NCBI RefSeq assembly: GCF_900019265.1
Contig: NZ_CYGX02000015.1
Span: 62,150-126,149, forward strand
Reading direction: 5' to 3'
DNA: 64,000 nt
Source: Paraburkholderia ribeironis
Lineage (GTDB): Bacteria > Pseudomonadota > Gammaproteobacteria > Burkholderiales > Burkholderiaceae
Every line of letters begins with the position of its first letter. Within the stretch, counting starts at the first letter, position 1. Below, one piece after another: positions 20,281 through 39,408 of this stretch. The notes beneath the pieces are model-generated. The model had not been told where the DNA came from. It did not search any database and worked only from the letters and a program-made list of their open reading frames with translations. Both the position numbers and the translations under genes were made by a program.

Positions 20281-21222
20281 TTATCCACGAGAAACGGCTA
20301 CCGGAGCATCTACGCAAGCGCGCTCATCGGCTGACACACGAACCATGTCGCATCCTTCTTCGGTCGTAATCAGTGCACACGCCAACTGACGGAGACTCAC
20401 GGTTCCAAGCGGCTGATTTCCTGCCCCAACAACAGTCAACTGATCGATTTCGGGGTTGCGTGTCAGCATCGAAATCGCTTCCTCATTTCCGTCGCGCAAA
20501 ATGGCGATCTGGTCACCGAGTCGCAGTGCCTCATCCAGGTCGTGCGTAATGAAGACGATCGTCTTGCGGATTTCCTTCTGAAGGTCCAACAGGACTGTTT
20601 GCATATCCATACGGATCAGCGGATCAAGCGCCGAATACGCTTCGTCCATCAGAAGAACAGGCGCGTCCATCGCAAGAGCGCGTGCCAGACCCACACGTTG
20701 CTGCATGCCACCAGACAACTGATTTGGAAAGCGCTGCTCGAATCCCTTGAGGCCCACGCGCTCAATCCATCTCATCGCTGTCTCGACAGCGGCGTTGCGC
20801 GCGACACCGCAAATCTCGAGACCGTAGATGACGTTGTCGAGCACGTTGCGATGGGGAAGCAGCGCGAACTTCTGAAACACCATCGCGGTGTGGCGTCGGC
20901 GAAATTCGCGCAGGTCCTTTTCCTTCATCTTGCACACGTCGACGCCGCCAATCATCACCTCGCCGGCCGTCGGGTCGATCAATCGATTGATGTGCCGGAT
21001 AAGCGTCGACTTGCCCGAGCCAGACAGTCCCATAATGACCTGGATGGAACCGGCAGGGATATCCAGATTGATGTCCCTCAATCCAAGCACGTGACCGTGC
21101 TGCTTGAGCAACTCGGCCTTGGACAGACCATTTTTGACGGCGCCAACATAGGATGCGGCTTTCGGCCCGAAAATCTTGTAGAGATTCTGGATTTTGATGC
21201 CGCCGGCTTTGATGTCAGCCAT
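20281..21222 (-). CDS. ProV/OpuAA-type ABC transporter ATPase with shortened C-terminus
   Basis: An ATPase of 313 residues that energises betaine import. Walker A is [10 protein letters not shown], the signature [15 protein letters not shown], Walker [13 protein letters not shown] and the H-loop ITHDLDEA. The N-terminal extension with [17 protein letters not shown] is typical of ProV. The usual tandem CBS regulatory pair is reduced to about 60 residues containing only one weak CBS-like unit. ProV itself is near 400 residues, so osmotic or ionic gating may be lost. The ATG at 21222 overlaps the permease stop by eight bases. Confidence 0.92.
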
Positions 21223-22102
21223 GGACCACCTCCTGGTGCTTTTGGAGCCGCTTGCCATATGCCTGACTGACGCGGTCAAAGATGACCGCGATGCCCACGA
21301 TAGCAAGACCGTTGAAGATGCCGAGCGTGAAGTACTGGTTTGCGATGGCCTTCAGCACCGGTTGGCCGAGACCTTGAACGCCGATCATCGCAGCGACGAC
21401 AACCATGGCCAGCGCCATCATGATGGTTTGGTTGACGCCTGCCATGATGGTCGGGAGCGCGAGCGGCAACTGGACTTTCACGAGTCGTTGCCAGCCCGAG
21501 GAACCGAAAGCGTCGGCGGCTTCAAGGATGTCCTTGTCAACCAGGCGGATGCCGAGATTGGTCAGTCGAATCATCGGCGGAATCGCGTAAATGACGACGG
21601 CGATAAGGCCGGGCACGCGTCCGATGCCAAGCAACATGACGACCGGAATCAGATAAACGAAGCTGGGCATGGTTTGCATCACGTCGAGTACCGGGTCGAC
21701 CAGCCTGCGGACCCGGTCCGACTTTGCCATGAGAATGCCGATTGGCAAGCCGATGACGATTGACAGGAACGTGCAAACGAAAATCATCGACACGGTTCTC
21801 ATCGTGTCCTGCCACATGTCGAGGTATCCAATCGCAGCAAGCGTGACGCAGCAGCCAACCACGATTTTCCAGTTCCTGCTTGCGGCCCACGCCACTGCAA
21901 GAATCAGCAGCATGATGATTGGCCACGGCGTGCGGGTCATGAAGTGCTCCGCTGCCGTCAGGAATTGCTGCAGCGGCTGGAACGCATTGTCGATGGGGTC
22001 GCCGTATGCTGCGGTGAAGGCGCGAAAGCTGTCATCGATTGAACGCTTCATGCCGAGAAGCGCGTCATCCTGCATATGTGGGAATCTTGTTAGCCAATCC
22101 AT
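21215..22102 (-). CDS. ProW-type ABC transporter permease
   Basis: An inner membrane protein of 295 residues with about six helices. The ABC-permease coupling helix is visible around DILEAADAFGSSGWQRLVKVQLPLALP, and GVNQTIMMALAMVVVAAMIG follows, as in ProW/OpuAB. The ATG at 22102 was selected because GGAGG lies five bases before it. It forms one importer with the ATPase downstream and the binding protein at 17729. Likely substrates are glycine betaine, proline betaine or related quaternary amines. Confidence 0.92.
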   Translation of the reverse strand: MDWLTRFPHMQDDALLGMKRSIDDSFRAFTAAYGDPIDNAFQPLQQFLTAAEHFMTRTPWPIIMLLILAVAWAASRNWKIVVGCCVTLAAIGYLDMWQDTMRTVSMIFVCTFLSIVIGLPIGILMAKSDRVRRLVDPVLDVMQTMPSFVYLIPVVMLLGIGRVPGLIAVVIYAIPPMIRLTNLGIRLVDKDILEAADAFGSSGWQRLVKVQLPLALPTIMAGVNQTIMMALAMVVVAAMIGVQGLGQPVLKAIANQYFTLGIFNGLAIVGIAVIFDRVSQAYGKRLQKHQEVVHG

Positions 22103-22170
22103 TTCTTCCTCCGTCATTCGGATGCTCGTCGGGAATCACTGCCGGTTTGCGCACGTGAAGATGCAGTTCC

Positions 22171-23496
22171 TTACTCCAAACCAGCCGACCATTCCTTGAC
22201 GCTCAAATTCGCTGTTGCGCCTATCGTCAAGAAGGGCTGCGGCGGAAGTCGCTTAGGGGCGGCGAAGCCTCGAAAGACGTCTACCAACCATGAATCGACA
22301 CCCAGTGCAGCCTCGGCGGCAGCAATCCCGGACGCGGTTGCCTTGGTGGCGCCGACTCCATTGCACGCAATTGCGGCGAAGATTCCGGGCTCAATCTCAC
22401 CGAACGCCGGGACTCCATTCCATGTGAGTGCCATGGCGCCAGCCCATCGATATTGCATCTGCACACCCTTCAACATGGGAAAGCGTGCTTCAAACTTGCG
22501 GTCGTGTATCCGACCAGCCCGGGCAATCGCTCCATCACTCACCTGCATGCCCGGGTTGTAGGTATAGCGGGAGCGAATCAGAATCCGGTCGCCCGCCTCG
22601 CCCGGTACCCTGCGAACCGTTGTTCCCATCGGGAACGCAGGCGTTGCCGCCCACGAGCGGTGACCGCCCAGCCGCGCGGGGGTAAATGCCTCAGTCATCG
22701 ACGCGTACGTATACACATGCAGGAGCACGCCCCGGAACAGACCAAAGCTCTGCGCCTGTCCGTTATTCGCAAGAATGATCTTTCCCGCGTTGATGACACC
22801 ATTCGGCGTCTTGATACGCCACGATGTGCCCTGTCGCTCGAATGACAACGCCGGTGTATTCTCGAAAAGCTTGACCAGGTCGCCGAAAGAATCGGCCAGG
22901 CCTCTGATGTAAGCTGCGGGTTGGATGATGACGGTGCCGGGGGTATAAATCGCTGACGTGAACGAATTCGTCCCCGTTACGCTGGCAATCTCCTTTGCAT
23001 CGAGAAGGCAATACTCCTCCCTTATCTTTTCCAACTGCTTTGCGTACGACACGACATGTTTGTCGCCTTGCGGACCCATCGCGACGTTGTACTTTCCGCA
23101 AGCGTCGAAGATGTCTTTGCCCCAGCCCTTTTCGGTGGCCAGCTCGCGTGCGAGAGCAATCGCCAAACGATGAACCTTGATATCGTGTCGCCGCTCGTCA
23201 CCGTCCGAACCACTGTAGTCTTCGGATGAGACTTCGTGAGGCAAGTCGATAATGAAACCCGAGTTGCGCCCGGTGGCGCCCTCTGCAATTTCTCCGGCCT
23301 CCACGATGACAACTTTAAGTTTTGGGTCGAGTTGCGACAGACGCCGGGCTGCCGATAGTCCAGCGAAGCCCGCGCCAATGACGGCAATATCGGCGCTTAT
23401 CGTGCCGTTCAACGACGGCCGCGGCGTCCGGGGAGGCAGCATGGCTACCCAACCTGATTGGCCAAGGTGCTGGGGAAGTTTGCTCGCTACGAACAT
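22171..23496 (-). CDS. FAD-dependent oxidoreductase, DAO family
   Basis: A flavoprotein of 441 residues. The dinucleotide-binding motif is IAVIGAGFAGLSAARRL near residue 37, with the EGATGRNSGFIIDLPHE flavin contact and a C-terminal AIACNGVGATKATASG block. This is the glycine/D-amino acid oxidase fold used by sarcosine oxidase, PuuB and N-methylproline demethylases. In this context it probably oxidises a secondary amine, for instance the mono-N-methyl product left by the Rieske enzyme. The start follows AAGGAATT and lies 18 bases after the DapA-family gene. Confidence 0.85.
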   Translation of the reverse strand: MFVASKLPQHLGQSGWVAMLPPRTPRPSLNGTISADIAVIGAGFAGLSAARRLSQLDPKLKVVIVEAGEIAEGATGRNSGFIIDLPHEVSSEDYSGSDGDERRHDIKVHRLAIALARELATEKGWGKDIFDACGKYNVAMGPQGDKHVVSYAKQLEKIREEYCLLDAKEIASVTGTNSFTSAIYTPGTVIIQPAAYIRGLADSFGDLVKLFENTPALSFERQGTSWRIKTPNGVINAGKIILANNGQAQSFGLFRGVLLHVYTYASMTEAFTPARLGGHRSWAATPAFPMGTTVRRVPGEAGDRILIRSRYTYNPGMQVSDGAIARAGRIHDRKFEARFPMLKGVQMQYRWAGAMALTWNGVPAFGEIEPGIFAAIACNGVGATKATASGIAAAEAALGVDSWLVDVFRGFAAPKRLPPQPFLTIGATANLSVKEWSAGLE

Positions 23497-23514: not shown

Positions 23515-24408
23515 TTAAACCGCCAATCTTTCGCGCTCGACAAGGTCACCCAGGGCGTTCCTCAGGACGTCGATTTTCTGGGCCGACAGACGCGACAACG
23601 GACGTCGCGGATTTCCCGCTCCATAACCTGTCATTTCCGAAGCTGCGTACACCGACTGCACATAGTCCCCTTCCCAGATCAATGACATGGCGGGCTCCAG
23701 CAACCGCCAGATTTCTCTGGCGTCGTCCCACCAATGCGCCTGTGCAGCCGCGACGAGCTCGATGCATGTCTTCGGTGCAAAATTCGCTCCGCCCCAGATG
23801 AGGCCACGTGCGCCGGCATACATTGCGTACGGCACGAGCGGGTCCGCACCGTTCATCACGGGAAGGCCCGTTCGAACGAGAGCCGCTTGTCTGGACAAAT
23901 CTCCACTACTGTCCTTTACAGCGAGGAACTCGGGAATCTCGCACAGTCGACGCAAAAGCGCTGGCGTGATTTCCACGCCGACAGCTTGCGGCACGTTGTA
24001 ACCGATGATTGGCAGACCGGCGCGCGCAACAGCGGAATAGAATTCGAAGACACCGTCATCGTCCGTCGGTCCCTCGAAGAACGGCGGCAGCACCATCACA
24101 GCGCCCGCGCCACAGTCGGCCGCATGACGGGTTCGCTCCACGACATCTTCAACTAGCAGAGCGGACGTCTGGGCGACAATTCGGGCTCGCCCGTCAATAA
24201 CCTTCGCCCCGAATGCCACCAGCGCTTTCGATTCCTCCTGCGACAGGTAGACGTGCATACCGGTGCCCGAGCTCAGCACGAAGCCGCGAACGCCCGCAGC
24301 AAGGTAACGCTCGATCAGCTGCTCCAGTCGATTGAAGTCCGGCTTACCGTGTTCATTGAAAGGAGTACTAATTGCCAGATTGATGCCAGTAAAAGAAAAG
24401 TCTTTCAT
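23515..24408 (-). CDS. DapA family (dihydrodipicolinate synthase-like) lyase
   Basis: A TIM-barrel enzyme of 297 residues. The Schiff-base lysine is in FLAVKDSSGD and the acid/base tyrosine in IIGYNVPQ, so it should be catalytically active. The family includes aldolases and deaminating dehydratases such as the hydroxyproline pathway deaminase HypC. This copy differs clearly from the HypC-like gene at 36068 (here GTGMHVYLS where the other has GSTGEYYALN), so a different keto or imino acid is likely. It is four bases from the aldehyde dehydrogenase upstream, which points to a semialdehyde product. Confidence 0.87.
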   Translation of the reverse strand: MKDFSFTGINLAISTPFNEHGKPDFNRLEQLIERYLAAGVRGFVLSSGTGMHVYLSQEESKALVAFGAKVIDGRARIVAQTSALLVEDVVERTRHAADCGAGAVMVLPPFFEGPTDDDGVFEFYSAVARAGLPIIGYNVPQAVGVEITPALLRRLCEIPEFLAVKDSSGDLSRQAALVRTGLPVMNGADPLVPYAMYAGARGLIWGGANFAPKTCIELVAAAQAHWWDDAREIWRLLEPAMSLIWEGDYVQSVYAASEMTGYGAGNPRRPLSRLSAQKIDVLRNALGDLVERERLAV

Positions 24409-24412
24409 GTCG

Positions 24413-25912
24413 TTACGCTTCTTCCATTTCGTTATCGTTCAGGTCGAGCCAGATAGTCTTCAGTTGCGTGTACTGGTCGTGCGCACTGAGAGAGTTATCG
24501 CGTCCACCGAAGCCCGATTGCTTGTATCCGCCAAACGGGGTGGTAATGTCACCTTCGCCAAACGAGTTCACCGTCACGGTGCCTGCCCGGATCGCACGCG
24601 CCGCACGCATCGCACGCTTGCCGTTGCCGGCGAACACGGAAGCAGCAAGGCCATAGTCGGTGTCGTTCGCGATGTCGATTGCCTCCTGCAGGCTGTCAAC
24701 AGTGATCACCGACAGAATCGGTCCGAAGATTTCTTCTTGAGCATGCCTGGCGTCGTTGCTCCCCACGTCGATGATGGTCGGGTGAACGTAGCGCCCGTCG
24801 CTCGTCTGACCGCCATAGAGCACTGTGTTGTCGTCGGACAGATACGACTGCACCTTCTCGTAATGCTGTTGAGAAACCAGCGGCCCGATTCGGTGTGCGG
24901 GGTCAAGCGGGTCGCCGACGCGCCACTCCTCAGCGAGCGTCGTGATTTTGTCGAGCAGGGTCGCCTTGATATCGCGATGCACGATGAGCCTGGAAATGGC
25001 CGAGCAGTTTTCGCCCATGTTCCAGAACGCGCCGTTGACGATATGGCCGGCCACTGAGTCGACGTCGGTAATATCGGACATCACGATGCAAGGGTTCTTC
25101 CCGCCCATTTCGAGCACAATCTCCTTGAGATTGCTCTCGGCCGAATAGGAAAGGAATCGCCGCCCGGTATCAGTCGAACCGGTGAAAGACACCATGTCGA
25201 TGTCGCGATGACGACCGATGGGTTCGCCGACCGAGGGTCCCGTACCCGTCACGACGTTGAAGATACCCGGAGGAATGCCTGCCTCGAGCGCAAGTTCAGC
25301 GACGCGCATGGTCGTCAATGAAGTTTCTTCAGCGGGCTTTACGACCAGCGAACAGCCTGCAGCAAGAGACGGTCCGATTTTCCATGCGAGCATCAGCAGC
25401 GGGAAGTTCCATGGCAACACCAGGCCGACGACGCCGACCGGCTCGCGCACAATCATCGCGATGTGGCTATCAGAAGCTGGCGATACCTGGTCGTAGATTT
25501 TGTCGATTGCCTCCGCGTGCCAGCGAAGTACGTTGATCGTTTCGGGAACGTCGACCGTCTGGCAGTCGAAGATGGTCTTGCCGCTGTCGAGGCTCTCCAT
25601 GACCGACAGCTCGAGAGCATTCTTCTCGATGAGGTTTGCCAGCCGCAGAATCGCCTGCTTGCGCGCAGCGGGGTGCAGCCTGGACCAGCGTCCGTCAGCG
25701 AATGCGGCGCGTGCGCTGGCGACCGCAGCATCAACATCCTCCTGCGAGCAAGCCGGCACGTCTGCGAGGTGCTCGCCCGTTGCCGGATTGAACGTCGCGA
25801 ACGTCTTGCCAGACGCTGCACCGCTAGCCTTGCCATCGATAATGGCGAGACTCGGCAGCTTCAACTCAAGAGCGATTTTTTTATATTCGCTTCTGGACAG
25901 CAAATCAGTCAT
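24413..25912 (-). CDS. NAD(P)-dependent aldehyde dehydrogenase (PuuC-like)
   Basis: An enzyme of 499 residues that oxidises an aldehyde to an acid. The general base is in LEMGGKNPCIVM, the catalytic cysteine in NMGENCSAISRL, and VLPWNFPLLMLAWKIGPSL is the cofactor-binding segment. The C-terminal SFGEGDITTPFGGYKQSGFGGRD is like gamma-glutamyl-aminobutyraldehyde dehydrogenases. It is followed directly by the DapA-family and FAD oxidase genes, so it probably takes an aldehyde from that route. It is preceded by the GntR gene on the same strand. Confidence 0.92.
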   Translation of the reverse strand: MTDLLSRSEYKKIALELKLPSLAIIDGKASGAASGKTFATFNPATGEHLADVPACSQEDVDAAVASARAAFADGRWSRLHPAARKQAILRLANLIEKNALELSVMESLDSGKTIFDCQTVDVPETINVLRWHAEAIDKIYDQVSPASDSHIAMIVREPVGVVGLVLPWNFPLLMLAWKIGPSLAAGCSLVVKPAEETSLTTMRVAELALEAGIPPGIFNVVTGTGPSVGEPIGRHRDIDMVSFTGSTDTGRRFLSYSAESNLKEIVLEMGGKNPCIVMSDITDVDSVAGHIVNGAFWNMGENCSAISRLIVHRDIKATLLDKITTLAEEWRVGDPLDPAHRIGPLVSQQHYEKVQSYLSDDNTVLYGGQTSDGRYVHPTIIDVGSNDARHAQEEIFGPILSVITVDSLQEAIDIANDTDYGLAASVFAGNGKRAMRAARAIRAGTVTVNSFGEGDITTPFGGYKQSGFGGRDNSLSAHDQYTQLKTIWLDLNDNEMEEA

Positions 25913-25973: not shown

Positions 25974-26699
25974 CTAGAAGTCAATCGACACATTGACGCC
26001 TTCTGGTGTTACGTACGACGCCATGTTTCGCCGCGCCAGGTAAACATGCGCGCGCACGACTTCGCCAGCCGCTTCTGCGTCACGGCGCTGAATGGCATCG
26101 ATGATGTCCTCATGCTGCTGAAGCGCTTGCGCGAGTTCAGCATCCATTCGCTCGTCGCGCGGCTGATAAAACGTCTTGCCTAACCGTGCATGGTCGATTA
26201 GCAGGCGGCACAAGCTTGGCAACAGATACGGGTTGTGAGCCATCTTGCCGATTGCAAGGTGAAACTGGTCGTTCTGCAAAACCCTCTCATCCACATCGAC
26301 ACCTTCCACCGCTGCGCGAAACCGCTCCTGGATTCGCTTCAGCCCGTCGATTTCCGCCTGTGTCGCGTGCGTTGCTGCGAGCTTGGTGGTCGCAACATAA
26401 ATCAACGGAGCCGCCAGAAAATAGTTTCGCAGCGAGTCGTAGTTCATGGACGCAACGCGAGCGGCGCGATTCGCCTCGAGTTCGATATAGCCTTCAGCTG
26501 CCATCTGCCGCATGAGCTCCCGCACGGGTGGGCGGGACATCCCGAACTCCTCGCTCAGCGCGACCTCGTCCAGGGTCGAACCCGGCGCCAGTTCCATGCT
26601 GAGGATGCGGTGCCGTAAAGCCTGTCCCAAAGCTGCCTTGCGGTCCTGGGACGATGACTGTCCTTCCTCACGATCGATTTCAACGACGTTCGCTTTCAT
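25974..26699 (-). CDS. GntR family regulator, FCD subgroup
   Basis: A regulator of 241 residues. The winged helix-turn-helix spans about 20-85: ALRHRILSMELAPGSTLDEV then FGMSRPPVRELMRQM. The helical FCD effector domain follows, with metal-site histidines in NDQFHLAIG, RLLIDHARL and RAHVYLARR. The ATG at 26699 follows GGAGGAC. It leads the left catabolic operon (ALDH, DapA, FAD oxidase and transporter downstream), and a perfect inverted repeat 36 bases upstream of it is the obvious site for autoregulation. Confidence 0.93.
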   Translation of the reverse strand: MKANVVEIDREEGQSSSQDRKAALGQALRHRILSMELAPGSTLDEVALSEEFGMSRPPVRELMRQMAAEGYIELEANRAARVASMNYDSLRNYFLAAPLIYVATTKLAATHATQAEIDGLKRIQERFRAAVEGVDVDERVLQNDQFHLAIGKMAHNPYLLPSLCRLLIDHARLGKTFYQPRDERMDAELAQALQQHEDIIDAIQRRDAEAAGEVVRAHVYLARRNMASYVTPEGVNVSIDF

Positions 26700-27506: not shown

Positions 27507-28670
27507 ATGAGCGCAAGGCGTCCCAACAGATTTGATGCTATGAACCTGGTAGAAAGAATGTTCGACCCTGCGCCGCAAGCAGAAGATAGACTTTCCAGCG
27601 CCGGCACATGGGAATGTGGTGGAACGCTTTGGGCGAGCAACGAGCAGCAGACTCTGACATGTTGCCGTGTGGTTGACGAGACCCACGATGTCAAAAGCTT
27701 CGAATTCCAGATTGGCGATGGCACTCCCGTCCGTTTCGAACCGGGTCAGTTCATGACCGTGTCGGCAAACGTGCAAGGGCAGTCGGTCGAGCGGTGCTAC
27801 ACGATTTCATCTCCACCGACGCGCCCCTATCTGCTGTCCATTACAGTCAAGCGAGTGCCGGGCGGCACCATGTCGAACTGGCTTCACGAGAACATGAAGC
27901 CCGGAAACCAGTTGCGCGCGTACGGCCCATCGGGCAGCTTCACCCCGGCATCTGGTCGCGCCGCAAAGTCGCTGTACCTATCCGCAGGCTCAGGAGTTAC
28001 GCCGCTGATGTCGATGACGCGTGCAAGCATCGACCTCGGGTTGGATCGGGACATCGTGTTCGTTCATAGCGCGAGGACACCCGCAGATATCGTTTTCCGC
28101 AAAGAGCTGCAGAGACTCGTGGAGCTCTCTGGTGGCCTTCGCACGTTCTTCGTCTGTGAAGGCCTCGGAGATGAAGAGGATTGGTCGGGACCGACAGGCC
28201 GACTCAGTCTGCAACTGCTTTCCGAATGGGTGCCGGACTATGCCGAGCGCGAAGTCTTCACTTGCGGTCCCGCTGGCTACATGAGCGCAGTGCGCGAGTT
28301 GCTCCGCGAAGGCGGACATGACCCGGCACGCTACCACCAGGAAAGCTTTGATATCGCCGCCGGTGCCGCGCCAGAACCTGCTGCACCAGAGAACGACACC
28401 GCTCATGAGACCTTCACCGTGAAGCTCTCGCGCTCCTCGAAGACATTCACGACGCGTGCTTCGGAAACCGTGCTCTCCGCCGCAAGAAAAGCCGGCGTGC
28501 CTATCCCGTCGTCTTGCAGCCAGGGCATATGCGGTACATGCAAGACCAAGGTCCTCGAAGGCACGGTCGACATGAAGCACAACGGTGGGATTCGCGACAG
28601 AGAGGTCCAGAAGGGATTCCGACTGCTCTGCTGCAGCCGGCCGACGTCGGACCTGGTGCTGGAGCTATAG
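27507..28670 (+). CDS. Ferredoxin reductase with C-terminal plant-type 2Fe-2S domain (probable Rieske demethylase reductase, GbcB-like)
   Basis: An electron-transfer protein of 387 residues. The flavin domain has RCYTISSPPTRP, the NAD(P) domain has YLSAGSGVTPLMSM and FTCGPAGYM, and the last 90 residues form a 2Fe-2S domain with CSQGICGTC and the fourth cysteine in LLCCSRP. This domain order is that of GbcB and related reductases that feed Rieske N-demethylases. The only Rieske oxygenase in the window, at 15192, lacks a reductase beside it, so these two are likely partners despite 11 kb and opposite strands. The ATG at 27507 has a weak ribosome site; 27540 is an alternative. Confidence 0.88.
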   Translation: MSARRPNRFDAMNLVERMFDPAPQAEDRLSSAGTWECGGTLWASNEQQTLTCCRVVDETHDVKSFEFQIGDGTPVRFEPGQFMTVSANVQGQSVERCYTISSPPTRPYLLSITVKRVPGGTMSNWLHENMKPGNQLRAYGPSGSFTPASGRAAKSLYLSAGSGVTPLMSMTRASIDLGLDRDIVFVHSARTPADIVFRKELQRLVELSGGLRTFFVCEGLGDEEDWSGPTGRLSLQLLSEWVPDYAEREVFTCGPAGYMSAVRELLREGGHDPARYHQESFDIAAGAAPEPAAPENDTAHETFTVKLSRSSKTFTTRASETVLSAARKAGVPIPSSCSQGICGTCKTKVLEGTVDMKHNGGIRDREVQKGFRLLCCSRPTSDLVLEL

Positions 28671-28791: not shown

Positions 28792-30021
28792 ATGGCGGGC
28801 GACCAGCTCTTCGATACGGATAACGCAGTCGAACTGGATGGCAAAGATGTGATTTTGCGAGACGTACGGGCGTATCGGCTCGCGCGGGTGCAGCAGCAGT
28901 TACTCAGGCATAAGGTCCCGGCAATTCTGCTGTATGACCCGGTGAACATTCGCTATGCAACCGACACGTCCAACATGCAAGTGTGGGCCGGGCGCAATCC
29001 GTCGCGGTACGTGATGATTTTTGCCGACGGCCGTGTCGTCGCATGGGAGTTTCACAGCTGCGAGCATGTATGGGACGGCCTGGATCTCCATGTCGAACTA
29101 CGCAGCGCCGTGAGCTGGACGTTCTTCAATGCCGGGCACGCGGCCGAGTCCCGCGCCGAAGTCTGGGGAGCGGAGGTGGTGGACGTGTTCAGGAAGCACG
29201 CGCCGAATGACTGCCGGTTGGCAGTCGACCGGCTCGACCCGATGGGGGCAGCGTATCTGCAGAAGAACGGACTGACTCTACTGGATGGGCAGGTCTTGAT
29301 GGAAGAAGCCCGGGCCATCAAATCAGCCGGCGAACTCGTCCTGATCGGAGAATCGTTGCGCACGTGCGAGAAAGGCATCGAACGCATGCAACGCGAACTG
29401 CGTCCGGGCATAACCGAGCAGGACCTTTGGGCAAACCTTCATTTCGAGAACATCCGGCACGGCGGAGAGTGGATTGAAACAAGGCTTCTTGCTTCCGGAG
29501 ACCGGACCAACCCGTGGATGCATGAATGCTCCGCGCGAACTTTGCAAGCCGGCGAGCTTCTGGCGTTCGACACAGATATGGTTGGGCCAAACGGCTACTG
29601 CTCAGACATTTCCCGCACCTGGCTCGTGGGTGGCGGTCGTCCGTCCGATGAGCAGCGCAGGCTCTATGAAACAGCCTATAAACAAGTCCATTTCAACATG
29701 GACCTTTTGCGGCCGGGCATGACATTCCGGGAGTTCTCCGATAAAGCTTGGAAGATTCCAGAGCAGTTCCTGAAAAACAGATATTGCTGCCTCGCCCACG
29801 GCATTGGAATGGTCGACGAATATCCGTCGATCGCTCACCAGGTAGATTGGGATAGCGCGGGCTACGACGGGCAATTCGAAACCGGAATGACGCTGTGCGT
29901 TGAAAGCTATATCGGTGCGGACGGAGGCACCCAAGGTGTCAAGCTCGAACAGCAAGTTGTGCTGACGGAGCACGGTTGCGTGCCACTCACCGCATGCAGC
30001 TTCGAGACCGACTGGCTGTGA
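28792..30021 (+). CDS. DddP-like M24 family metalloenzyme (DMSP lyase homologue)
   Basis: A protein of 409 residues with the creatinase/aminopeptidase P fold. The six metal ligands are visible as D260, D262, D272, H336, E371 and E386. Their spacing (2, 12, 76, 111 and 126 residues from the first) equals that published for DddP of Ruegeria lacuscaerulensis. Blocks NIRYATDTSNMQVW, GGEWIETRLLASG and FDTDMVGPNGYCSDISRTW are those of DddP rather than of ordinary Xaa-Pro aminopeptidases. DddP cleaves dimethylsulfoniopropionate to acrylate and dimethyl sulfide, but DddP-like proteins without that activity exist. It follows the reductase by 121 bases and may act on a betaine-like compound. CAGGAG precedes the ATG. 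Confidence 0.85.
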   Translation: MAGDQLFDTDNAVELDGKDVILRDVRAYRLARVQQQLLRHKVPAILLYDPVNIRYATDTSNMQVWAGRNPSRYVMIFADGRVVAWEFHSCEHVWDGLDLHVELRSAVSWTFFNAGHAAESRAEVWGAEVVDVFRKHAPNDCRLAVDRLDPMGAAYLQKNGLTLLDGQVLMEEARAIKSAGELVLIGESLRTCEKGIERMQRELRPGITEQDLWANLHFENIRHGGEWIETRLLASGDRTNPWMHECSARTLQAGELLAFDTDMVGPNGYCSDISRTWLVGGGRPSDEQRRLYETAYKQVHFNMDLLRPGMTFREFSDKAWKIPEQFLKNRYCCLAHGIGMVDEYPSIAHQVDWDSAGYDGQFETGMTLCVESYIGADGGTQGVKLEQQVVLTEHGCVPLTACSFETDWL

Positions 30022-30386: not shown

Positions 30387-31151
30387 TCACAGAATCGCCA
30401 TCGATTCCGTCATGTTCTGTCTCATGTAATCGAGGAACCGCTTCTGGAACAGCATGGTGTGTTCGTGCGCGAGTCTCTCGGCGGCCTCAGCGTCTTTGCG
30501 CGCAATGGCGTCAATCATGTCCGCATGGTCACGCCCCAGCTTTGCCGCCGTCGGAGACGTCACCGTGAAATCAAAGTGAAGGTGCAAGAGGCGCTGACCT
30601 TCGCCCAGAAGCCGCTCGTAGTATCCGACGAAGTAAGGATTATTTGCAGCATGCGCAATCGCCATGTGCAATGCCTTGTTCGTTTCGGACATTGCATTGA
30701 AATCGCCGCTATCGACCGCCTGCATGTAGGTGTCGTCCGCTTTGCGGATGCGCGCGAGGTCGGCTTCCGTCCGGTGCAATGCGGCGAGGCGGGTAACGGC
30801 ACGCTGGATAAGGTCGAGAGCCGACACATACTTCGGAAATTCTTCGATTTCAAACGGCGTAACAAGCGTCGTCCGGTTTGGAAGAATCGTCACCAGACCT
30901 TCGCTTATCAGCCGGGCGAGCGCGTCACGTACCGGAGAACGCGAAAGTCCGAATTGTGCGGCGAGCGACACCTCATCCAATGGCGCGCCCGGCTTCAGCT
31001 TTAGCGTCAGAATCTGCTTGCGCAGTTCCTCGTAGATATACCGTCCGCCGTGCCGCCGACCGTTGGTCTCCGTCTCGCTCGTACCTTTGCTCATGATTTC
31101 ACCGCTGTCATTGTGGGCCCGAAAAGAGGGACGCGCTTTCAAGTTTATCAC
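30387..31151 (-). CDS. GntR family regulator, FCD subgroup, of the hydroxyproline operon
   Basis: A regulator of 254 residues if the GTG at 31151 is used (AGGGAG eight bases before it, 15 bases after the upstream stop); an ATG at 31094 would give 235. The DNA-binding part has YIYEELRKQILTLKLKPGAP and LSRSPVRDALARLISEG. The FCD domain has NKALHMAIAHAANNPY and EHTMLF with metal-site histidines. It is the last gene of the minus-strand operon that starts at 40239, and its effector is probably hydroxyproline or a pathway intermediate. The palindrome at 40283 is its likely site. Confidence 0.92.
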   Translation of the reverse strand: MINLKARPSFRAHNDSGEIMSKGTSETETNGRRHGGRYIYEELRKQILTLKLKPGAPLDEVSLAAQFGLSRSPVRDALARLISEGLVTILPNRTTLVTPFEIEEFPKYVSALDLIQRAVTRLAALHRTEADLARIRKADDTYMQAVDSGDFNAMSETNKALHMAIAHAANNPYFVGYYERLLGEGQRLLHLHFDFTVTSPTAAKLGRDHADMIDAIARKDAEAAERLAHEHTMLFQKRFLDYMRQNMTESMAIL

Positions 31152-31166: not shown

Positions 31167-32198
31167 TCAGACCTTCGGGAAACCCGAGCCCCACGTATCG
31201 CTGAGCATGAATCCGGCGGCCAGCGGGTCATCGGGGTCGACGCCGATTTGCCGTATGCCATAGACCCATGCTCGCCCCTGAACGCGTGGCAGCACGGCTG
31301 GCCTGCCGCCCACCTCCGTCTTTGCGAGCAACTCAATGCTGAACTCACCGCCGATTGTCGAACGGGACGTCAACCTGCTACCGACGTCAGCCAGACCGCG
31401 GGCCGCCAGCGTCGCCAGATTGGCCGAGCTCCCCGTTCCGCACGGGGATCTGTCAACGCGACCGGGTGGGAGGGTTGTGCAGGTCTGGTACAGATCGTCA
31501 CTGATGCGATTGCGAAACATCACATACGCGACTTCGTTGATTTGCGGGAAGAGAGGATGCTGTATCTGAATCTGCTGGTTGATGACACCCTTTAGCGAAA
31601 CACCGAGTTCGGCCAGTTCGCGCGCATTCTCTGGCGCAATCTCCAACCCAACCTGGTCCACATCGATGAGTGCATAGTAGACGCCCCCGAAAGCGATATC
31701 CGCCTTTATTTTTCCGAACTTCGGTGTTTCGATGCTGACGTCAAGCTGTTCGACGAACGATGGCACCATATCGAGCGAAACGCCCGTGCAACGCCCCTCC
31801 CTGCAAGTCGCGCGAGCGGTCACAAGCCCCGCCGGTGTGTCCAGAACGACCGTCGTTTGCGGCTCCTGCATCTCGACCATGCCAAGCTCGAGCAACGCTG
31901 TGACCACGCAGATTGCATTGCTCCCTGACATCGGATGCGCCTTGTCCGCCTGCAACACAATGAAGCCCGCGTGTGCTTCGGGACGCGTTGGCGGCAACAG
32001 AAGATTGACCGACATCTGGAGACAACCACGCGGTTCAAGCACGACCAGTCGTCGCAGACTGTCGTCGACTTCGTTGATGTAGTTCATCTTGTCGAGCATG
32101 GTCTCACCGGGAATGCCGACCACCCCTGCTGTGATGACCTTGCCGATCTCACCTTCGCAGTGAACGTCGACGAGTTGAAGTGTCCTTTTCCAGCGCAT
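31167..32198 (-). CDS. Proline racemase family protein, Ser/Cys active site (probable 4-hydroxyproline epimerase-type)
   Basis: A protein of 343 residues. In this family two residues on opposite sides of the substrate act as acid and base. Here they are Ser91 (HPMSGSNAIC) and Cys253 ([12 protein letters not shown]). Published surveys of the family describe Cys/Cys and Ser/Cys members as 4-hydroxyproline 2-epimerases or proline racemases, and Cys/Thr members as trans-3-hydroxyproline dehydratases. It therefore may epimerise a hydroxyproline isomer different from that of the Cys/Cys paralogue at 34994. It sits 12 bases after the aldehyde dehydrogenase and 15 before the GntR gene. Confidence 0.85.
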   Translation of the reverse strand: MRWKRTLQLVDVHCEGEIGKVITAGVVGIPGETMLDKMNYINEVDDSLRRLVVLEPRGCLQMSVNLLLPPTRPEAHAGFIVLQADKAHPMSGSNAICVVTALLELGMVEMQEPQTTVVLDTPAGLVTARATCREGRCTGVSLDMVPSFVEQLDVSIETPKFGKIKADIAFGGVYYALIDVDQVGLEIAPENARELAELGVSLKGVINQQIQIQHPLFPQINEVAYVMFRNRISDDLYQTCTTLPPGRVDRSPCGTGSSANLATLAARGLADVGSRLTSRSTIGGEFSIELLAKTEVGGRPAVLPRVQGRAWVYGIRQIGVDPDDPLAAGFMLSDTWGSGFPKV

Positions 32199-32210: not shown

Positions 32211-33692
32211 TTACTTGATGTACCAGCCCCATGGCTTGTCGCTGTCGTACCTGGTAATCTGCTTCGTTTCCAGATAGTTATTCAGGCCCCACTCGCCCAG
32301 TTCACGGCCGATGCCGCTTTGCTTGTAGCCGCCCCAGGGCGCTTCGGTGAAGGTCGGCTGTGAGCAGTTGATCCAGACAATGCCTGCTCGCAAAGCACGC
32401 GCAACGCGGTCGCAACGTTCAAGGTCTTTTGACATGACGGCGGCAGCGAGACCGAAACGCGAATCGTTGGCCGACCGCAGTGCTTGCGCTTCGTCCTCAA
32501 ACGGTCGGATGCAGACGACAGGGCCAAAAATTTCCTCCCGCCAGATCCAGCTGGTTTCAGCAACATCTGCAAACACGACCGGTTCCATGAAATAGCCGGT
32601 CTTGAGATGCGCGGGGCGACCGCCGCCTGTCACAAGACGTGCCCCCTCGAGCTTGCCACGCGCGAGCGCTTCCTGAACCTTGTCGTACTGTCCCCGGCTA
32701 ACGATCGGGCCGAGCAGAACACCATCCTCGAGTCCGCTGCCGATGCGAATTTTGCGCACTTCATCCGTCAGTCGTTCAAGCAGACGTTCATAGATGCCAC
32801 GCTGCACCAGGACGCGAGACGTCGCAGAGCAGACCTGCCCCTGGTTCCAGAAGATGCCAAACATAATCCACTCGACAGCCGCCTCAATGTCGCTGTCGTC
32901 GAAAACGATGAACGGTGACTTGCCGCCCAACTCGAGACTGACGTTCTTGATGTCGCGCGCCGCGGTCTGCATGATTTTGCTTCCAGTCGGAACGCTACCG
33001 GTGAAAGCCAGTTTATCGATGCCGGGATGCTCGCTCAGCGCAGCACCGGCATCCGTGCCAAAGCCAGTGACGATGTTCAGTACGCCAGCGGGAAGTTCAG
33101 CCGCAGCAGCAATGTTGCCGAGTTCAAGCGCTGTGAGAGGCGTAAGCTCCGACGGCTTGAGAACCATCGTGCAACCCGCTGCAAGCGCCGGTGCGACCTT
33201 CCACGCGGCCATCAGCATAGGAAAGTTCCACGGAATAATCGCACCTGCCACCCCAACTGGCTCTTTCCTTGCAATTGAACTGAAGCGGTCGTCGGGCAGC
33301 GCGACTGCATTTTCGGCCTTCCCGTCGAGTTCTTCTGCAAGTCCAGCGTAGAACTCGAAGCAGCCCGCGGCATCGCCCAGGTCCCACAGTGCTTCGGGCA
33401 ACGGCTTGCCGTTATCGCGTACTTCGACTTCTGCCAGTTCGGGCAGCCGTGCGCGGATGCCGCTTGCGATTTTGCGCAGGACGGCGCCGCGTTCGGCCCC
33501 GCTCATGCGTGGCCATGGACCATGGTCGAATGCCTCTCGCGCCGCTTTCACGGCAAGGTCCACATCCTCCGCGGTCGCCGCCGCGACGCTCGCGATGACC
33601 CTTTCCGTGCAAGGGTCGATAGTCTCGAATGTTCCGCCCTTGACGGGCGATACCCAACGGCCATTGATGAAAAGTTGGTCGTATGATTTCAT
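32211..33692 (-). CDS. Aldehyde dehydrogenase, probable 2-oxoglutarate semialdehyde dehydrogenase
   Basis: An enzyme of 493 residues. The catalytic cysteine is in NQGQVCSATSRV, the base in LELGGKSPFIVF, and the C-terminal APWGGYKQSGIGRELGEWGL is of the betaine-aldehyde-dehydrogenase-like type. In the 4-hydroxyproline pathway the deaminase product, 2,5-dioxopentanoate, is oxidised to 2-oxoglutarate by such an enzyme. All other steps are encoded beside it, so this assignment is favoured over betaine aldehyde dehydrogenase, although sequence alone does not exclude the latter. Confidence 0.87.
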   Translation of the reverse strand: MKSYDQLFINGRWVSPVKGGTFETIDPCTERVIASVAAATAEDVDLAVKAAREAFDHGPWPRMSGAERGAVLRKIASGIRARLPELAEVEVRDNGKPLPEALWDLGDAAGCFEFYAGLAEELDGKAENAVALPDDRFSSIARKEPVGVAGAIIPWNFPMLMAAWKVAPALAAGCTMVLKPSELTPLTALELGNIAAAAELPAGVLNIVTGFGTDAGAALSEHPGIDKLAFTGSVPTGSKIMQTAARDIKNVSLELGGKSPFIVFDDSDIEAAVEWIMFGIFWNQGQVCSATSRVLVQRGIYERLLERLTDEVRKIRIGSGLEDGVLLGPIVSRGQYDKVQEALARGKLEGARLVTGGGRPAHLKTGYFMEPVVFADVAETSWIWREEIFGPVVCIRPFEDEAQALRSANDSRFGLAAAVMSKDLERCDRVARALRAGIVWINCSQPTFTEAPWGGYKQSGIGRELGEWGLNNYLETKQITRYDSDKPWGWYIK

Positions 33693-33704: not shown

Positions 33705-34997
33705 TCAGGCAAAGCGATAGGCACTAAAGGGCGCCAGGTTTTGTTTCGTCGTACGGCCGGCGACCATGTCGCCGATCAATCTCCCTGTGGTCGCGCCCAG
33801 TGTGAGTCCGAGCTGACCATGACCGAAAGCCATAAAGACGTTTTGCAACCGGTGCGAACGGTCGATGACCGGTTTGGTGTCCGGCAGGAACGGCCTGTAA
33901 CCAACGCCAAATTCAATCTGGTCTGTCCGGAGTCCGGGCAGTATCCGTTGCGCTTTTTCCAGAATGATTTCGGCGCGCTTGAAGTTGGGCTGCGCGTCGC
34001 GACCCGCGAACTCGATGGTGCCGCCTATCTGCAAGCCACGAGTCATGGGGGTGAAGCAGAAGCCACCGTCGGCATAGATGATTGAATGCCGAATCTCAAC
34101 TTGCGGGTTCGGCACAAGCACCTGGTAGCCAGCAACGCCTTCGAGCGGAACGCTCACGCCAAGCTGGCCAAAAAACTTTCGTGACCCCGTGCCGGCGGCA
34201 ACGACCACATGTTTGGCCGCGATTTGCTGTCCGCTTGTGAGCGTGACACCGGTGGCCAGCCCCGACGCTTCATCGATCCGCGCGGCGCTCGAGCGCACCC
34301 GAGTGCCGCCATTGGCAACAAAGCTCGCGGTCAAGGCCGCGATGAAACCCTCGGTGTCGCTGACGAACCGCCAGTCCGGAAATAGCAGACCGTGTGAAAA
34401 GCGTCCCGCGAGTGCCGGTTCCAGGTCGGCGATATCTTTGGCGTTTAACCGCTGATAAGAGAAGCCGAGCGATTGCCGCAAGTCGAGATGCGCCTTGTCG
34501 CGTTCTATCGCGGTCGGGCTGTCGAAGAGCTCGAGGACGGGCAGCTGCCCGAGGAGTGTCTTGTCTTCGCACATCTGAAGCAGCGGCGCGTAATCCGCGT
34601 ACACGTCGTGTGTGAGCGACGCCATCGATTGCGCGATGTCGACAATCTTCGCATGGCGCGCCGATGCTACGAAACGCAAGAACCATGGCAGAATGCGCGG
34701 CAGCGCTTGGGGACGTAAAGCCAGCGGTCCCTTCTGGTCGATGAGCCAGCCTGGTACTTTCATCAGGATGCCCGGCTTCGACAGCGGAATGACCTCGCTG
34801 ACCGCCATCTGTCCGCAGCTCCACTTTGCCGTGCTATTGCCAGGCGCTTCCGGGTCTATGAGGGTGACCGCATAGCCATCGCGTTGCAGATAGAGCGCGC
34901 AACACACGCCGACAATGCCACCGCCAATCACCACTGCTTCTTCATGCACAGCAGGATGCGGCGTTCCGGCAATTCGTTCACGAGGCACGGCATTCAC
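33705..34997 (-). CDS. FAD-dependent D-hydroxyproline dehydrogenase/oxidase (DadA-like)
   Basis: A flavoprotein of 430 residues. The motif [17 protein letters not shown] lies near the N-terminus, followed by [20 protein letters not shown] and a C-terminal [20 protein letters not shown]. This is the single-subunit D-amino acid dehydrogenase type that converts cis-4-hydroxy-D-proline to the pyrroline. The GTG start was chosen: it overlaps the stop of the racemase gene upstream as GTGA, and CAGGAG lies eight bases before it. That gives translational coupling between epimerase and dehydrogenase, consecutive steps in the pathway. Confidence 0.88.
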
Positions 34998-36010
34998 TTG
35001 ACGAACTCCTGCAGACTGAATCCATGTGCGTAGGGCTGCGAGTCGTCGACATAATGTTCTCCACGACCCGTAATCCATGCGCGCCCTTCAATGCTCGGGT
35101 ACACGGCGTCAAGACCGCTTTCGAGTCTGGTCGTCGCCTCGACGCGGCCGATGAAACGGCTGCCAATCAGGCTTTCATGCCTGAACGGCTGGCCTTCGGC
35201 CAGGAGACCGCGCGCAAACCGCTGCGCCACGCGCGCCGAACTGCCCGTTCCGCACGGCGACCGGTCGATGAGACTGTCACCTGCGATAACCACGGAGCGT
35301 CCATCGGCATCGTCGGCAAGCGGGCGGCCCGTCCACATGCAATGCTTCACTCCGCGAATGTGCGGATTGTCCGGGTGAACCACTTCGATAGTCTCGTTGA
35401 CGAGCCGCTGCATGTCTCGCCCCCACTCGAGTAGTTGCTCAGGGGCAAAGTGTTCGCAGCCCGGATAGTTCGCCTGCATTTCAACAATCGGATAGAAGTT
35501 GCCGCCATAGGCAATGTCAACCGAAAGTTTCCCGAGTTGAGGCAACGTGACCTCGACGTCGCGATGGAGCAGGAAGCTGGCGACATTCGTAAAGCGAACC
35601 GACGAGACGCGCTCACCCGCCATTTCATAGCGTGCCGTCACCTGACCAGCCGGCACATCCACGACGACGGTCCCCGCTTGCTTCGGCGAGACAAGACCTG
35701 CTTGCAGCGCGAACGATATCGAGCCAATCGTCGCGTGACCGCACATGGGGAGGCACCCGGACGTTTCGATGAACAGCAGGCTGAAATCTGCGTTTGCGGT
35801 CAATGGCGGATAAAAAATCGTTCCGGACATGTGGGAATGACCACGCGGCTCCAGCATCAACGCGCGGCGAACCCAGTCGTAGTGCTCAACGAAATACTTG
35901 CGCCGGTCATTCATCGTCGCCCCCTGAAGTTCAGGGCCACCGTTGATGACCATACGGACCGGCATACCTTCGGTATGACCTTCGATGCAAGTAAAACTAT
36001 GTCTGGACAT
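34994..36010 (-). CDS. 4-hydroxyproline 2-epimerase (proline racemase family, Cys/Cys)
   Basis: A protein of 338 residues converting trans-4-hydroxy-L-proline to cis-4-hydroxy-D-proline. Catalytic cysteines are Cys90 ([10 protein letters not shown]) and Cys253 ([12 protein letters not shown]). The N-terminal [17 protein letters not shown] opening is that of proline racemase and 4HypE enzymes. Neighbours code for the following three steps, which makes the epimerase role more likely than a plain proline racemase. Its stop overlaps the start of the dehydrogenase gene by four bases. Confidence 0.92.
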
Positions 36011-36067: not shown

Positions 36068-36946
36068 TCAGCGCTGCGCCGCTTCGAACACCTTGCGGAA
36101 TTCCGCCTTTTCCTCGTCGGTCAGTGGCTTGAGCGGCAAGCGTGCATTGCCGACATTGAAGCCCGCCAGTTCGCAACCGTACTTCACCTTCTGCACGAAC
36201 TTGCCTGCTTCCATGATAGCCATCACCGGGAAGAGCGAGCGCATGACCGCCTGAGCGCCAAAAATGTCGCCGGCAGCGAACTTGTTGTAGATATCGACCG
36301 TCTGCTTTGCAAAGCAGTTAGCGGGTCCGCAGATCCAGCTTGTCGCCCCCCAGAGGAAGAAGTCGAGCGCCTGGTCATCGGAGCCGCAGGAAAGCTGATA
36401 GTCGTCCTTGTACTTCGAGCCGATTTCAATCGCGCGCAGCAGGTTGCCGCTGCTTTCCTTGATGCCGACAACGCGCGGGTGGTTCCTGAACGCTTCCAGG
36501 ACGCCAAAGCCGACCTCGACGTTGGTGCGGACCGGATAGTTGTAAAGAACCAGATTGATGTCCGGTGCAGCTTCCAGGATAGCTTCATAGTGCCCGATGA
36601 GCTCTTCCTGCGACGGCAGAGCATAGTACGGCGGAGCGATGAGCAGATTCGTATAGCCTGCGTCACGCGTCTGCTTGACCTGTTCGATGACTTCACGCGT
36701 CGACGAACCATTCGCACCTGCAATCAGAATGCCACGCTCGCCCACCACTTCGCGGACCGTCTTCAGAACCGCACGGCGCTCGTCATTGTTCAGCGCATAG
36801 TATTCACCCGTCGACCCCAGCGGTACAAAGCCCTTGACGCCAGCTTTGAGTTGATACTCGATGATGTTCGCGAGCGTGTCGTGGTCGACAGCCCCCTTGC
36901 TGTCGAACGGCGTCACGAGGGCGGGCAGGATTCCTTTCATTTCCAT
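36068..36946 (-). CDS. DapA family deaminase, probable pyrroline-4-hydroxy-2-carboxylate deaminase
   Basis: A protein of 292 residues. It has the DapA motifs GSTGEYYAL, the tyrosine in VLYNYPVRTNVEVG and the Schiff-base lysine in VVGIKESSGN. In hydroxyproline clusters this family member (HypC) opens and deaminates 1-pyrroline-4-hydroxy-2-carboxylate to 2-oxoglutarate semialdehyde. It lies between the permease and epimerase genes in one operon, supporting that role over lysine biosynthesis. Confidence 0.9.
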   Translation of the reverse strand: MEMKGILPALVTPFDSKGAVDHDTLANIIEYQLKAGVKGFVPLGSTGEYYALNNDERRAVLKTVREVVGERGILIAGANGSSTREVIEQVKQTRDAGYTNLLIAPPYYALPSQEELIGHYEAILEAAPDINLVLYNYPVRTNVEVGFGVLEAFRNHPRVVGIKESSGNLLRAIEIGSKYKDDYQLSCGSDDQALDFFLWGATSWICGPANCFAKQTVDIYNKFAAGDIFGAQAVMRSLFPVMAIMEAGKFVQKVKYGCELAGFNVGNARLPLKPLTDEEKAEFRKVFEAAQR

Positions 36947-36976: not shown

Positions 36977-37642
36977 TTAGTAGGCAAAACGCCTGAGCAA
37001 TCGCGTCTCAACCACGCCGACCAGACGCGTCAGCGGGAAAGCGACAAGGAAGTAAATCATCGCGACCGTGGTCAGAAACTCCACCGGTCGTGCTGTGCTG
37101 TTCGAAATGTTCTGACCAACGAACATCAGGTCGGCAACACCAACCGACGAGATGAGTGCGCTCTCCTTGAAAAGACTGACGATGTTGGACAGCAACGGCG
37201 GAATCGCTCGCAGCAGCGCCTGAGGAAAAATCACGTACAGAATCTTTGCCTGAGGCGAGAGACTCAACGCGGTGCACGCGTCATGTTGCTCGGCGGAAAT
37301 CGATTTCAATGCCCCACGAAACGTCTCGCTGGTGATGGCCGCCATGTAGAGCGTCAGCGAAATAACGACCGAGAGATACGGTGGAATCGGCAGTCTGAAA
37401 ACAACCGGAAAGCAGAAGAAGACCCAGAACAGTTGAATCAGCAGCGGTGTACCTCGAAAGAATTCGACGTAAAGAGTCGTCGCTGCCTTCATCCACCGCG
37501 ACGGTGACATCCGCAGCAGGCTCAAGACGAATCCCGCGAGACTTCCAATGACTGCACAGCTGCTCGTAAATGCAATGGTGAGTCCGAGGCCTTTGAGCAA
37601 GACCATCCAGTAAGGCAATACAGACGAGAAATCCAGATGCAT
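36977..37642 (-). CDS. Polar amino acid ABC transporter permease (HisM/GlnP type), second
   Basis: An inner membrane protein of 221 residues with about five helices. The GLTIAFTSSCAVIGSLAGFV opening, the EFFRGTPLLIQLFWVFF segment and the coupling loop EQHDACTALSLSPQAKILYVIFPQA define the family. It pairs with the permease gene ten bases upstream to form the heteromeric channel for the importer whose binding protein is at 39409. Confidence 0.92.
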   Translation of the reverse strand: MHLDFSSVLPYWMVLLKGLGLTIAFTSSCAVIGSLAGFVLSLLRMSPSRWMKAATTLYVEFFRGTPLLIQLFWVFFCFPVVFRLPIPPYLSVVISLTLYMAAITSETFRGALKSISAEQHDACTALSLSPQAKILYVIFPQALLRAIPPLLSNIVSLFKESALISSVGVADLMFVGQNISNSTARPVEFLTTVAMIYFLVAFPLTRLVGVVETRLLRRFAY

Positions 37643-37652
37643 GGTGTTCTCC

Positions 37653-38324
37653 TCAGCGCTTGACTGCGAGGTCCTGACGACGCTCGATCACATGAACCAG
37701 TCTGGCAATCGGCAGCGAGAGCGCGAAGTAAATGAGCGCGACCACCGTGTAAGTTTCGAGCGGACGATATGCCTGCGTCGCGAGGCTCTTGCCGACATAC
37801 ATCAGGTCGGCAACCGCGACGATGGCAACTAGCGCGCTCTGCTGCAGGCTGCCGATGCCGTTGGTCATCAGCACCGGCATCGCACTGCGAAGCGCCTGGG
37901 GCAAAACCACATAGACGGTGCGTTGCCACGGCTTCAACCCAAGCGCTACGGATGCGTCGAGATGCTCTTTCGGGACTGCCTGGACACCCGCACGATAGGC
38001 TTCTGCGTTAAATGCCGTCAGATTCAGGCCGAGCGCCAGAACGCCCATCATGATGGGGTCGATGAAAACGTCGACCATCATCGGAATGCAGTAGAAGAAC
38101 CAGACGATTTGCAGCAGCGCCGGCGTGCAGCGGAAAAATTCGATGAACAACTGCGCCGGCCAGCGAACGACTACCCAGCGGCTCATCGCCAGAAGACACA
38201 GCAGAAAGCCCAGCACCAGCCCCATGACGTTGGACGCAACCGCTAGCTCAACCGTGACCTTCAGCCCGTCGAGCAAGGAACCGAAGCTCCCGGCCAGGAA
38301 ATTGAAATCAAAGTGGTAGTTCAT
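37653..38324 (-). CDS. Polar amino acid ABC transporter permease, first
   Basis: A protein of 223 residues. The same family landmarks are present: GLKVTVELAVASNVMGLVLG, IEFFRCTPALLQIVWFFY and a coupling loop around KEHLDASVALGLKPWQRTVYVVLPQ. The ATG at 38324 was chosen because it gives the usual short cytoplasmic start and lies eight bases after the ATPase stop. The 39 codons upstream belong to the ATPase gene in another frame. Confidence 0.92.
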   Translation of the reverse strand: MNYHFDFNFLAGSFGSLLDGLKVTVELAVASNVMGLVLGFLLCLLAMSRWVVVRWPAQLFIEFFRCTPALLQIVWFFYCIPMMVDVFIDPIMMGVLALGLNLTAFNAEAYRAGVQAVPKEHLDASVALGLKPWQRTVYVVLPQALRSAMPVLMTNGIGSLQQSALVAIVAVADLMYVGKSLATQAYRPLETYTVVALIYFALSLPIARLVHVIERRQDLAVKR

Positions 38325-38332
38325 GGCCGGCC

Positions 38333-39166: not shown

Positions 39167-39267
39167 GAAATTTCTCCAGGGCAGCGCGCCTTGATGCACG
39201 CGATGTGTGATTCGAACGTGCGATTCGAACCCGGCTTTTCCCGATTGGCTGCTGCCCTTCTACCGGT

Positions 39268-39296: not shown

Positions 39297-39408
39297 GTCG
39301 GCATAGAGACGCTCAGGCAGAGCGGCCTCGCTGGTTGCCGAGGGCAGCGTCTGGGATTGCGTCGAGACGGAGGGCGGGGGCGAACCCGGTCATGCGACCG
39401 GGCAGACG

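Follow-up and report, generated by a model that had tools for sequence, protein, structure and literature searches.

The 64,000-nucleotide stretch of Paraburkholderia ribeironis DNA analysed here (contig NZ_CYGX02000015.1, positions 62,150 to 126,149; hereafter the window) encodes, at 28792-30021 on the plus strand, a 409-amino-acid protein of the DddP family, named after an enzyme that cleaves dimethylsulfoniopropionate (DMSP). An AGGAG motif lies directly 5' of its ATG, and the host bacterium presumably lives in soil. The protein matches Pfam M24 (PF00557; E=1.2e-34, 120.3 bits against a gathering score of 23), and its top matches in the PDB are RlDddP and RdDddP (E ~1e-91), followed by a prolidase (1e-15). 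Its predicted fold is also closest to DddP and far from peptidases. Over aligned columns, it is 38.7% identical to RlDddP, 46% to a Rhizobium form and 55% to a Pseudomonas form (58% for the latter by local alignment).

Alignment to RlDddP pairs D260, D262, D272, H336, E371 and E386 with the metal ligands D295, D297, D307, H371, E406 and E421 at an offset of 35 throughout, which confirms the ligand spacing that a preliminary description of this DNA had called identical to that of RlDddP. W65, Y331 and D342 occupy the positions of RlDddP W95, Y366 and D377 (the number 95 was counted on this alignment), and the substrate-binding aromatics that the same description had set aside for checking are thus kept, along with the base Asp. 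The RdDddP paper names Asp377 and Tyr366 as candidate bases and favours the Asp (PMC4108388); the solved entries 4s01 (D377N) and 4s00 (Y366A) are mutants of exactly those RlDddP residues. The sulfur of DMSP is reported to be held by one Trp and one Tyr (PMC5395565).

The DddP-like gene lies among genes that resemble those of betaine and hydroxyproline catabolism, listed here with coordinates in the window, strand and assignment. Abbreviations in the list are FAD (flavin adenine dinucleotide), NAD (nicotinamide adenine dinucleotide), ABC (ATP-binding cassette), DHDPS (dihydrodipicolinate synthase) and T3LHyp (trans-3-hydroxy-L-proline).

15192..16448 (-): Rieske oxygenase alpha subunit, Stc2/GbcA type, with CxH/CxxH ligands and CYHC; the open reading frame (ORF) can start at 16535
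16683..17651 (-): LysR regulator of the cassette
17729..18730 (-): OpuAC-type substrate-binding protein; top PDB match RnDmpX, 4 of 8 pocket residues replaced
19007..20254 (-): serine hydroxymethyltransferase (one-carbon use)
20281..21222 (-): ABC transporter ATPase, likely of a betaine transporter
21215..22117 (-): ABC transporter permease, likely of a betaine transporter
22171..23442 (-): FAD-dependent amine/imino-acid oxidoreductase (DAO family)
23515..24408 (-): DHDPS-family lyase/deaminase
24413..25912 (-): aldehyde dehydrogenase
25974..26699 (-): GntR/FCD regulator, divergent from the reductase/DddP-like pair
27507..28670 (+): GbcB-like Rieske reductase (FAD/NAD/2Fe-2S); longest ORF, the gene caller starting at 27669
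28792..30021 (+): DddP-like M24-fold protein; ligands D260, D262, D272, H336, E371, E386, with W65, Y331 and D342
30387..31094 (-): GntR/FCD regulator of the hydroxyproline block
31167..32198 (-): proline-racemase-superfamily protein, nearest to T3LHyp dehydratase (355 bits, below the cut-off of 550)
32211..33692 (-): aldehyde dehydrogenase
33705..34949 (-): FAD oxidoreductase, D-amino-acid dehydrogenase type
34994..36010 (-): 4-hydroxyproline 2-epimerase (518 bits, above the cut-off of 376)
36068..36946 (-): DHDPS-family lyase/deaminase
36977..40239 (-): polar amino-acid-type ABC transporter (two permeases, ATPase, SBP_bac_3)

The reductase gene precedes the DddP-like gene on the same strand with a gap of 121 bp, and the two are likely co-transcribed. 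The matching Rieske oxygenase, absent from the preliminary description, lies 12.3 kb from the DddP-like gene on the opposite strand. Both score under the curated cut-offs (reductase, GbcB NF058606, 342.5 bits against 500; oxygenase, GbcA NCBIfam, 402.9 against 670). The oxygenase carries, as ECYHCEAGH, the Cys-X-X-Cys that is described next to the mononuclear iron site in some group V (quaternary-ammonium) Rieske oxygenases (PMC10952381), and it is predicted to N-demethylate betaines. The betaine surroundings claimed earlier are borne out, and the neighbouring gene is indeed that of a Rieske reductase. In the proline-racemase-superfamily protein at 31167-32198 the second Cys motif (DRSPCGTG) is present and the first is lacking, with Ser at the expected first Cys; a Rhizobium epimerase (locus L062, 11214-12212) has Cys at the first and Gly at the second catalytic position.

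The nearest solved structure to the substrate-binding protein at 17729-18730 is the DMSP-binding RnDmpX (7YLE; PMC10030565). Relative to the DmpX pocket it has W84A, E113S, A153G and Y200V and keeps Trp35, Thr64, Trp152 and Trp202; replacing DmpX Tyr200 by Ala or Phe is reported to abolish DMSP binding (PMC10030565). A DmpX-type DMSP transporter, suggested by the PDB match, is rejected on these pocket residues, including Tyr200 to Val.

One alignment used for the active site was read without its L028 row, which was in a wrong frame. We also surveyed 148 family sequences, RlDddP counted. The six ligands are complete in 144, the exceptions being L182 and L207 (both frame-broken and lacking the site), L192 and L148. 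W95 and D377 are both present in 118 of the 148; another 27 replace the Trp by Y, F or N and the Asp by G or N, and L148 is mixed at these positions. A maximum-likelihood tree was built with 58 rows, drawn from 62 representatives at 80% identity plus 3 outgroups, with seven rows omitted (the three outgroups, L148, L149, L065 and L213); an earlier tree had long outgroup branches. Three major clades emerge. One lacks the base (10 rows, support 100/100). Clade A (17 rows, 100/99) unites the DddP of roseobacters and of Oceanisphaera with certain proteins from rhizobia, actinobacteria and Burkholderiaceae. The window protein belongs to clade B (30 rows, 100/98), together with proteins of two gammaproteobacteria (L060, L209), of rhizobia and of a mixed group that is mostly marine. 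Clades A and B are each other's closest kin with weak support (90/63), because an odd paralogue (L046 18021) could fall between them. The window protein, which sequence and predicted fold place with DddP, lies outside the clade of the characterised roseobacter DddP. The approximately unbiased test rejects a grouping of the Burkholderiaceae proteins with the DddP of roseobacters and gammaproteobacteria (p-AU 0.0004, for a group chosen after seeing the tree). Recruitment of the roseobacter DddP orthologue itself is rejected on the separate clade and this test.

Several family members stand apart. Paralogues in L043 (9526-10650), L054, L055 (9331-10557), L056 and L057 have F or Y for W95 and G for D377, and form a branch without the base; they adjoin OpuAC betaine-binding proteins and, in some cases, glucose-methanol-choline (GMC) oxidoreductases. 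Acidimicrobiia L213, L215, L216 and L219 carry two close DddP-like genes, one with the full site and the other with Y95/N366/N377, and the related L212 has a ProXWV-type transporter, MttB-type genes and a HalD-like oxygenase. The DddP-like protein of Streptomyces sp. B-S-A6 (L183), 71% identical to the Rhizobium form, likely reached this actinobacterium by horizontal transfer.

The Rieske linkage recurs. Neighbours were labelled by tblastn, with a score above 80 bits and an identity of 35% or more required. Of the 11 Burkholderiaceae loci examined in the genus, 8 have the reductase 0-211 bp from the DddP-like gene and 10 have it no farther off than about 2.8 kb; in 9 the oxygenase is on the same contig, at most 13.3 kb away. 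For a distance of up to 10 kb, a wider Burkholderiaceae set (14 loci, two from the same species) gives 13 loci with the reductase and 7 with the oxygenase. The genes for LysR, oxygenase, reductase and DddP-like protein are consecutive in L049, L050, L051 and L066 (L049 and L066 being one species). The 63%-identical paralogue in the window's own genome (L042), like its counterpart L052, stands in a similar cassette with a different proline-racemase-family gene. A glutathione-independent formaldehyde dehydrogenase adjoins the DddP-like gene in 5/14 (L042, L044, L045, L046, L127); its family was checked on the L046 copy (753 bits, cut-off 637), to which the others are 93-98% identical.

The order in Rhizobium sp. 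BT03 is LysR, oxygenase (57% identical to that of the window), reductase, DddP-like gene, regulator and 4-hydroxyproline epimerase (586 bits, cut-off 376), followed by a glycine-betaine transporter, FAD oxidoreductase, aldehyde dehydrogenase and DHDPS. Across the 33 rhizobial-group loci with enough flank (of 41; one with a frame-broken DddP-like gene), an Stc2-like Rieske oxygenase occurs in 32, OpuAC in 25 and the proline-racemase family in 24. By comparison, the oxygenase, the proline-racemase family and OpuAC each occur at 0 of 18 loci with a DddP over the curated cut-off (17 of one family, probably roseobacters, plus L114), and the oxygenase, proline-racemase family, OpuAC and reductase each in 0 of 20 Burkholderiaceae control windows (aldehyde dehydrogenase 1, ABC ATPase 3). 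The controls comprise 14 windows from two replicons bearing the gene and 6 around other M24 genes, all of them from Burkholderiaceae and none rhizobial. Single over-cut-off DddP loci carry a betaine/choline/carnitine transporter (BCCT), aldehyde dehydrogenase, GMC, or MttB and dimethylglycine dehydrogenase (DMGDH); the last pair is seen in L110 (a second copy in G282), unlike the other 17.

Among 35 genomes of the genus, the DddP-like and Rieske genes (at least 62% and at least 67% identity, respectively) occur together in 7, the DddP-like gene alone in 1 (G029), the Rieske gene alone in 3 and neither in 24 (Fisher p 1.3e-4, uncorrected for kinship; G021, with a broken DddP-like piece, was scored as lacking). 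Other family members adjoin a different Rieske type (L060, L209, L053) or MttB and/or DMGDH (L064, L199, L201, L203, L204), and these neighbourhoods give independent support. The gammaproteobacterial context rests on two loci (L060, L209), because a class-wide search of 369 genomes gave no group member above 53% identity outside G000. In L115-L123 (family code f69), MttB, DMGDH, a DddP-like gene (~475 bits) and betaine-homocysteine methyltransferase are kept in 8/8 loci with enough flank. The recurrent linkage of this DddP-like clade to Rieske demethylase-type genes in Burkholderiaceae and rhizobia is the new element here; no paper making it was found in the literature searched, most subscription papers being outside its reach.

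We hypothesize that the window protein is a two-metal lyase from a separate clade of the DddP family and that it serves a betaine-catabolic island by cleaving what is likely a small onium carboxylate, either DMSP or a betaine; to this reading we give an even chance. We infer its metal content, its substrate and, from the conserved residues, an elimination reaction. By analogy with RlDddP, the metal pair held by D260, D262, D272, H336, E371 and E386 would bind the substrate carboxylate, W65 and Y331 would hold the charged onium head, and D342 would take the alpha proton, whereupon the beta bond would break; DMSP would yield acrylate and dimethyl sulfide (DMS). In some relatives a neighbouring formaldehyde dehydrogenase would take up the formaldehyde from Rieske N-demethylation. 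DMSP activity would be plausible, and the neighbourhood favours a betaine over DMSP; candidate substrates are DMSP, beta-alanine betaine and proline-type betaines. Unlikely, in our view, is a wider version, in which the land branch of the DddP fold, an M24-fold lyase, and Rieske monooxygenases form a betaine-splitting cassette with a nitrogen betaine as native substrate of the lyase, and the marine DMSP lyase is a specialised offshoot of a broader family of betaine enzymes; the weak Km of DddP for DMSP (14-17 mM) would then be explained.

A number of observations weigh against the lyase hypothesis. The NCBIfam DddP equivalog model NF043017 matches with E=5e-116 and 388.1 bits, under its 600-bit cut-off, and the predicted structure has a predicted local distance difference test score (pLDDT) below 50 at residues 63-69, the loop bearing W65. 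Thirty-nine alignment positions are conserved within roseobacter-type DddP and also within each of the two land groups, Burkholderiaceae and rhizobial, but with a different residue in the latter; they include C376 and A407, which adjoin the base and a metal ligand. No Rieske gene is found at the Streptomyces locus, at that of G029, or at the 9 loci with enough flank (of 21) in the mixed clade B group, mostly marine alphaproteobacterial metagenome-assembled genomes. The demethylase does not depend on this DddP-like gene, since the Rieske gene occurs in its absence in G003, G004 and G022. Finally, the locus counts are not independent events, because the loci are related, Rhizobium is oversampled and the query that retrieved the rhizobial loci was itself from Rhizobium.

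The preliminary description had left open whether a DMSP lyase was recruited or a betaine-like substrate is used; the first option fails for the roseobacter orthologue, and the context leans towards the second. A true DMSP lyase, in an island that handles mixed plant onium osmolytes and in which the DddP-like gene takes DMSP, is nevertheless the alternative that fares best, although we regard it as unlikely. The complete DddP active site is consistent with it, and a strong counter-case to a betaine substrate comes from Pseudomonas sp. MPC6. There the annotation shows a methylmalonate-semialdehyde dehydrogenase, an iron-containing alcohol dehydrogenase, a BCCT transporter and a CoA transferase 5 to 10 kb away from the 58%-identical relative; we take these genes to be dddC-, dddB-, dddT- and dddD-like. 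On the MPC6 plasmid (L060, 4702-25167), a Rieske block, the DddP-like gene and this cluster form one island, perhaps for several onium osmolytes.

Also in favour of a DMSP lyase is the HWgs001 DddP. It is reported to make DMS, and its closest relative is given as O. doudoroffii DddP2, which is itself described as standing apart phylogenetically from most DddP (PMC10989825). The first metal Asp of HWgs001 DddP bears the number 263, resembling the 260-267 of seven Burkholderiaceae and gammaproteobacterial relatives; the residue is at 270-281 in three other clade B sequences (L062, L064, L185) and at 289-301 in three of clade A (L053, L097, L115), while the pattern used did not pick up L063 and L212. 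O. doudoroffii DddP2 did not appear by name among the 120 matches listed by each protein search. Against a DMSP lyase, the P. ribeironis genome gave nothing over the cut-off of the AcuI/YhdH model (best 97 of 297 bits) and partial but no full-length matches to a DddD-like query, the substrate-binding protein has Val, Ala and Ser for DmpX Tyr200, Trp84 and Glu113, and the Rieske, hydroxyproline and formaldehyde genes have no known role in DMSP cleavage.

The protein might instead act within the Rieske demethylation pathway through another reaction on proline betaine, hydroxyproline betaine or an N-methyl product; it could, for example, epimerise or hydrolyse its substrate or dehydrate a 3-hydroxy form. 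The recurrence of proline-racemase-family, FAD oxidoreductase, DHDPS and aldehyde dehydrogenase genes next to it in Burkholderiaceae and Rhizobium speaks for this, and the relatives beside the second Rieske type or MttB/DMGDH argue for a methylated-nitrogen substrate, whichever the demethylating chemistry. However, the elimination residues of DddP are all kept, and the Stc2 structure is described with stachydrine being demethylated twice, to proline (PMC10952381), so no pathway gap needs another enzyme; we consider such a role rather improbable. An ordinary Xaa-Pro dipeptidase, as database names, the M24 fold and the proline-related neighbours would have it, is highly improbable: RlDddP and RdDddP are the top matches in both sequence and predicted fold, so that a plain peptidase is rejected and the protein stays away from the creatinases and Xaa-Pro peptidases named earlier as a refuting placement, and RlDddP is reported to have no measurable activity on Val-Pro (PMC5395565).

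If the hypothesis of a DddP-family lyase serving betaine catabolism is true, a marine enzyme may have a land version with its own job. The existence of a related clade that shares the DddP active site and recurs next to betaine demethylase genes in Burkholderiaceae and rhizobia makes it testable whether land bacteria release DMS from plant DMSP via such enzymes, and whether the DddP family began on betaines. It also carries a warning for DddP searches: of 398 genomes sampled across the phylum, 41 matched DddP at E <= 1e-60, and 24 of these had no match over the curated cut-off, so that loose cut-offs count genes of unassigned substrate.

Among known systems, the window resembles the Stc2 stachydrine demethylase and the GbcAB glycine betaine monooxygenase in its linked oxygenase and reductase of that type, but its pair scores under the GbcA and GbcB cut-offs; to our knowledge, the published Stc2 and GbcAB systems have no M24 gene as a part. 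With the hydroxyproline betaine pathway (Zhao 2013 and Kumar 2014, cited in PMC4113996) it shares the 4-hydroxyproline 2-epimerase, a D-amino-acid oxidase-type oxidase, DHDPS and aldehyde dehydrogenase, and M24 does not figure as a term in the main text of that paper. It is like the DmpXWV DMSP transporter in the nearest solved structure of its substrate-binding protein, RnDmpX, and differs in having Val for the essential Tyr200. The DddP-like protein shares with creatinase and the ectoine hydrolase DoeA a predicted pita-bread fold and a probable association with small nitrogen compounds. Compared with the DddP DMSP lyases (RlDddP 4rzy/4s00/4s01, RdDddP 4b28), it differs in its 36-39% identity over aligned residues, separate clade, sub-cut-off NCBIfam score, shorter N-terminus and Rieske/betaine neighbourhood, and it is alike in its predicted fold, the spacing of the six ligands and the W95, Y366 and D377 positions.
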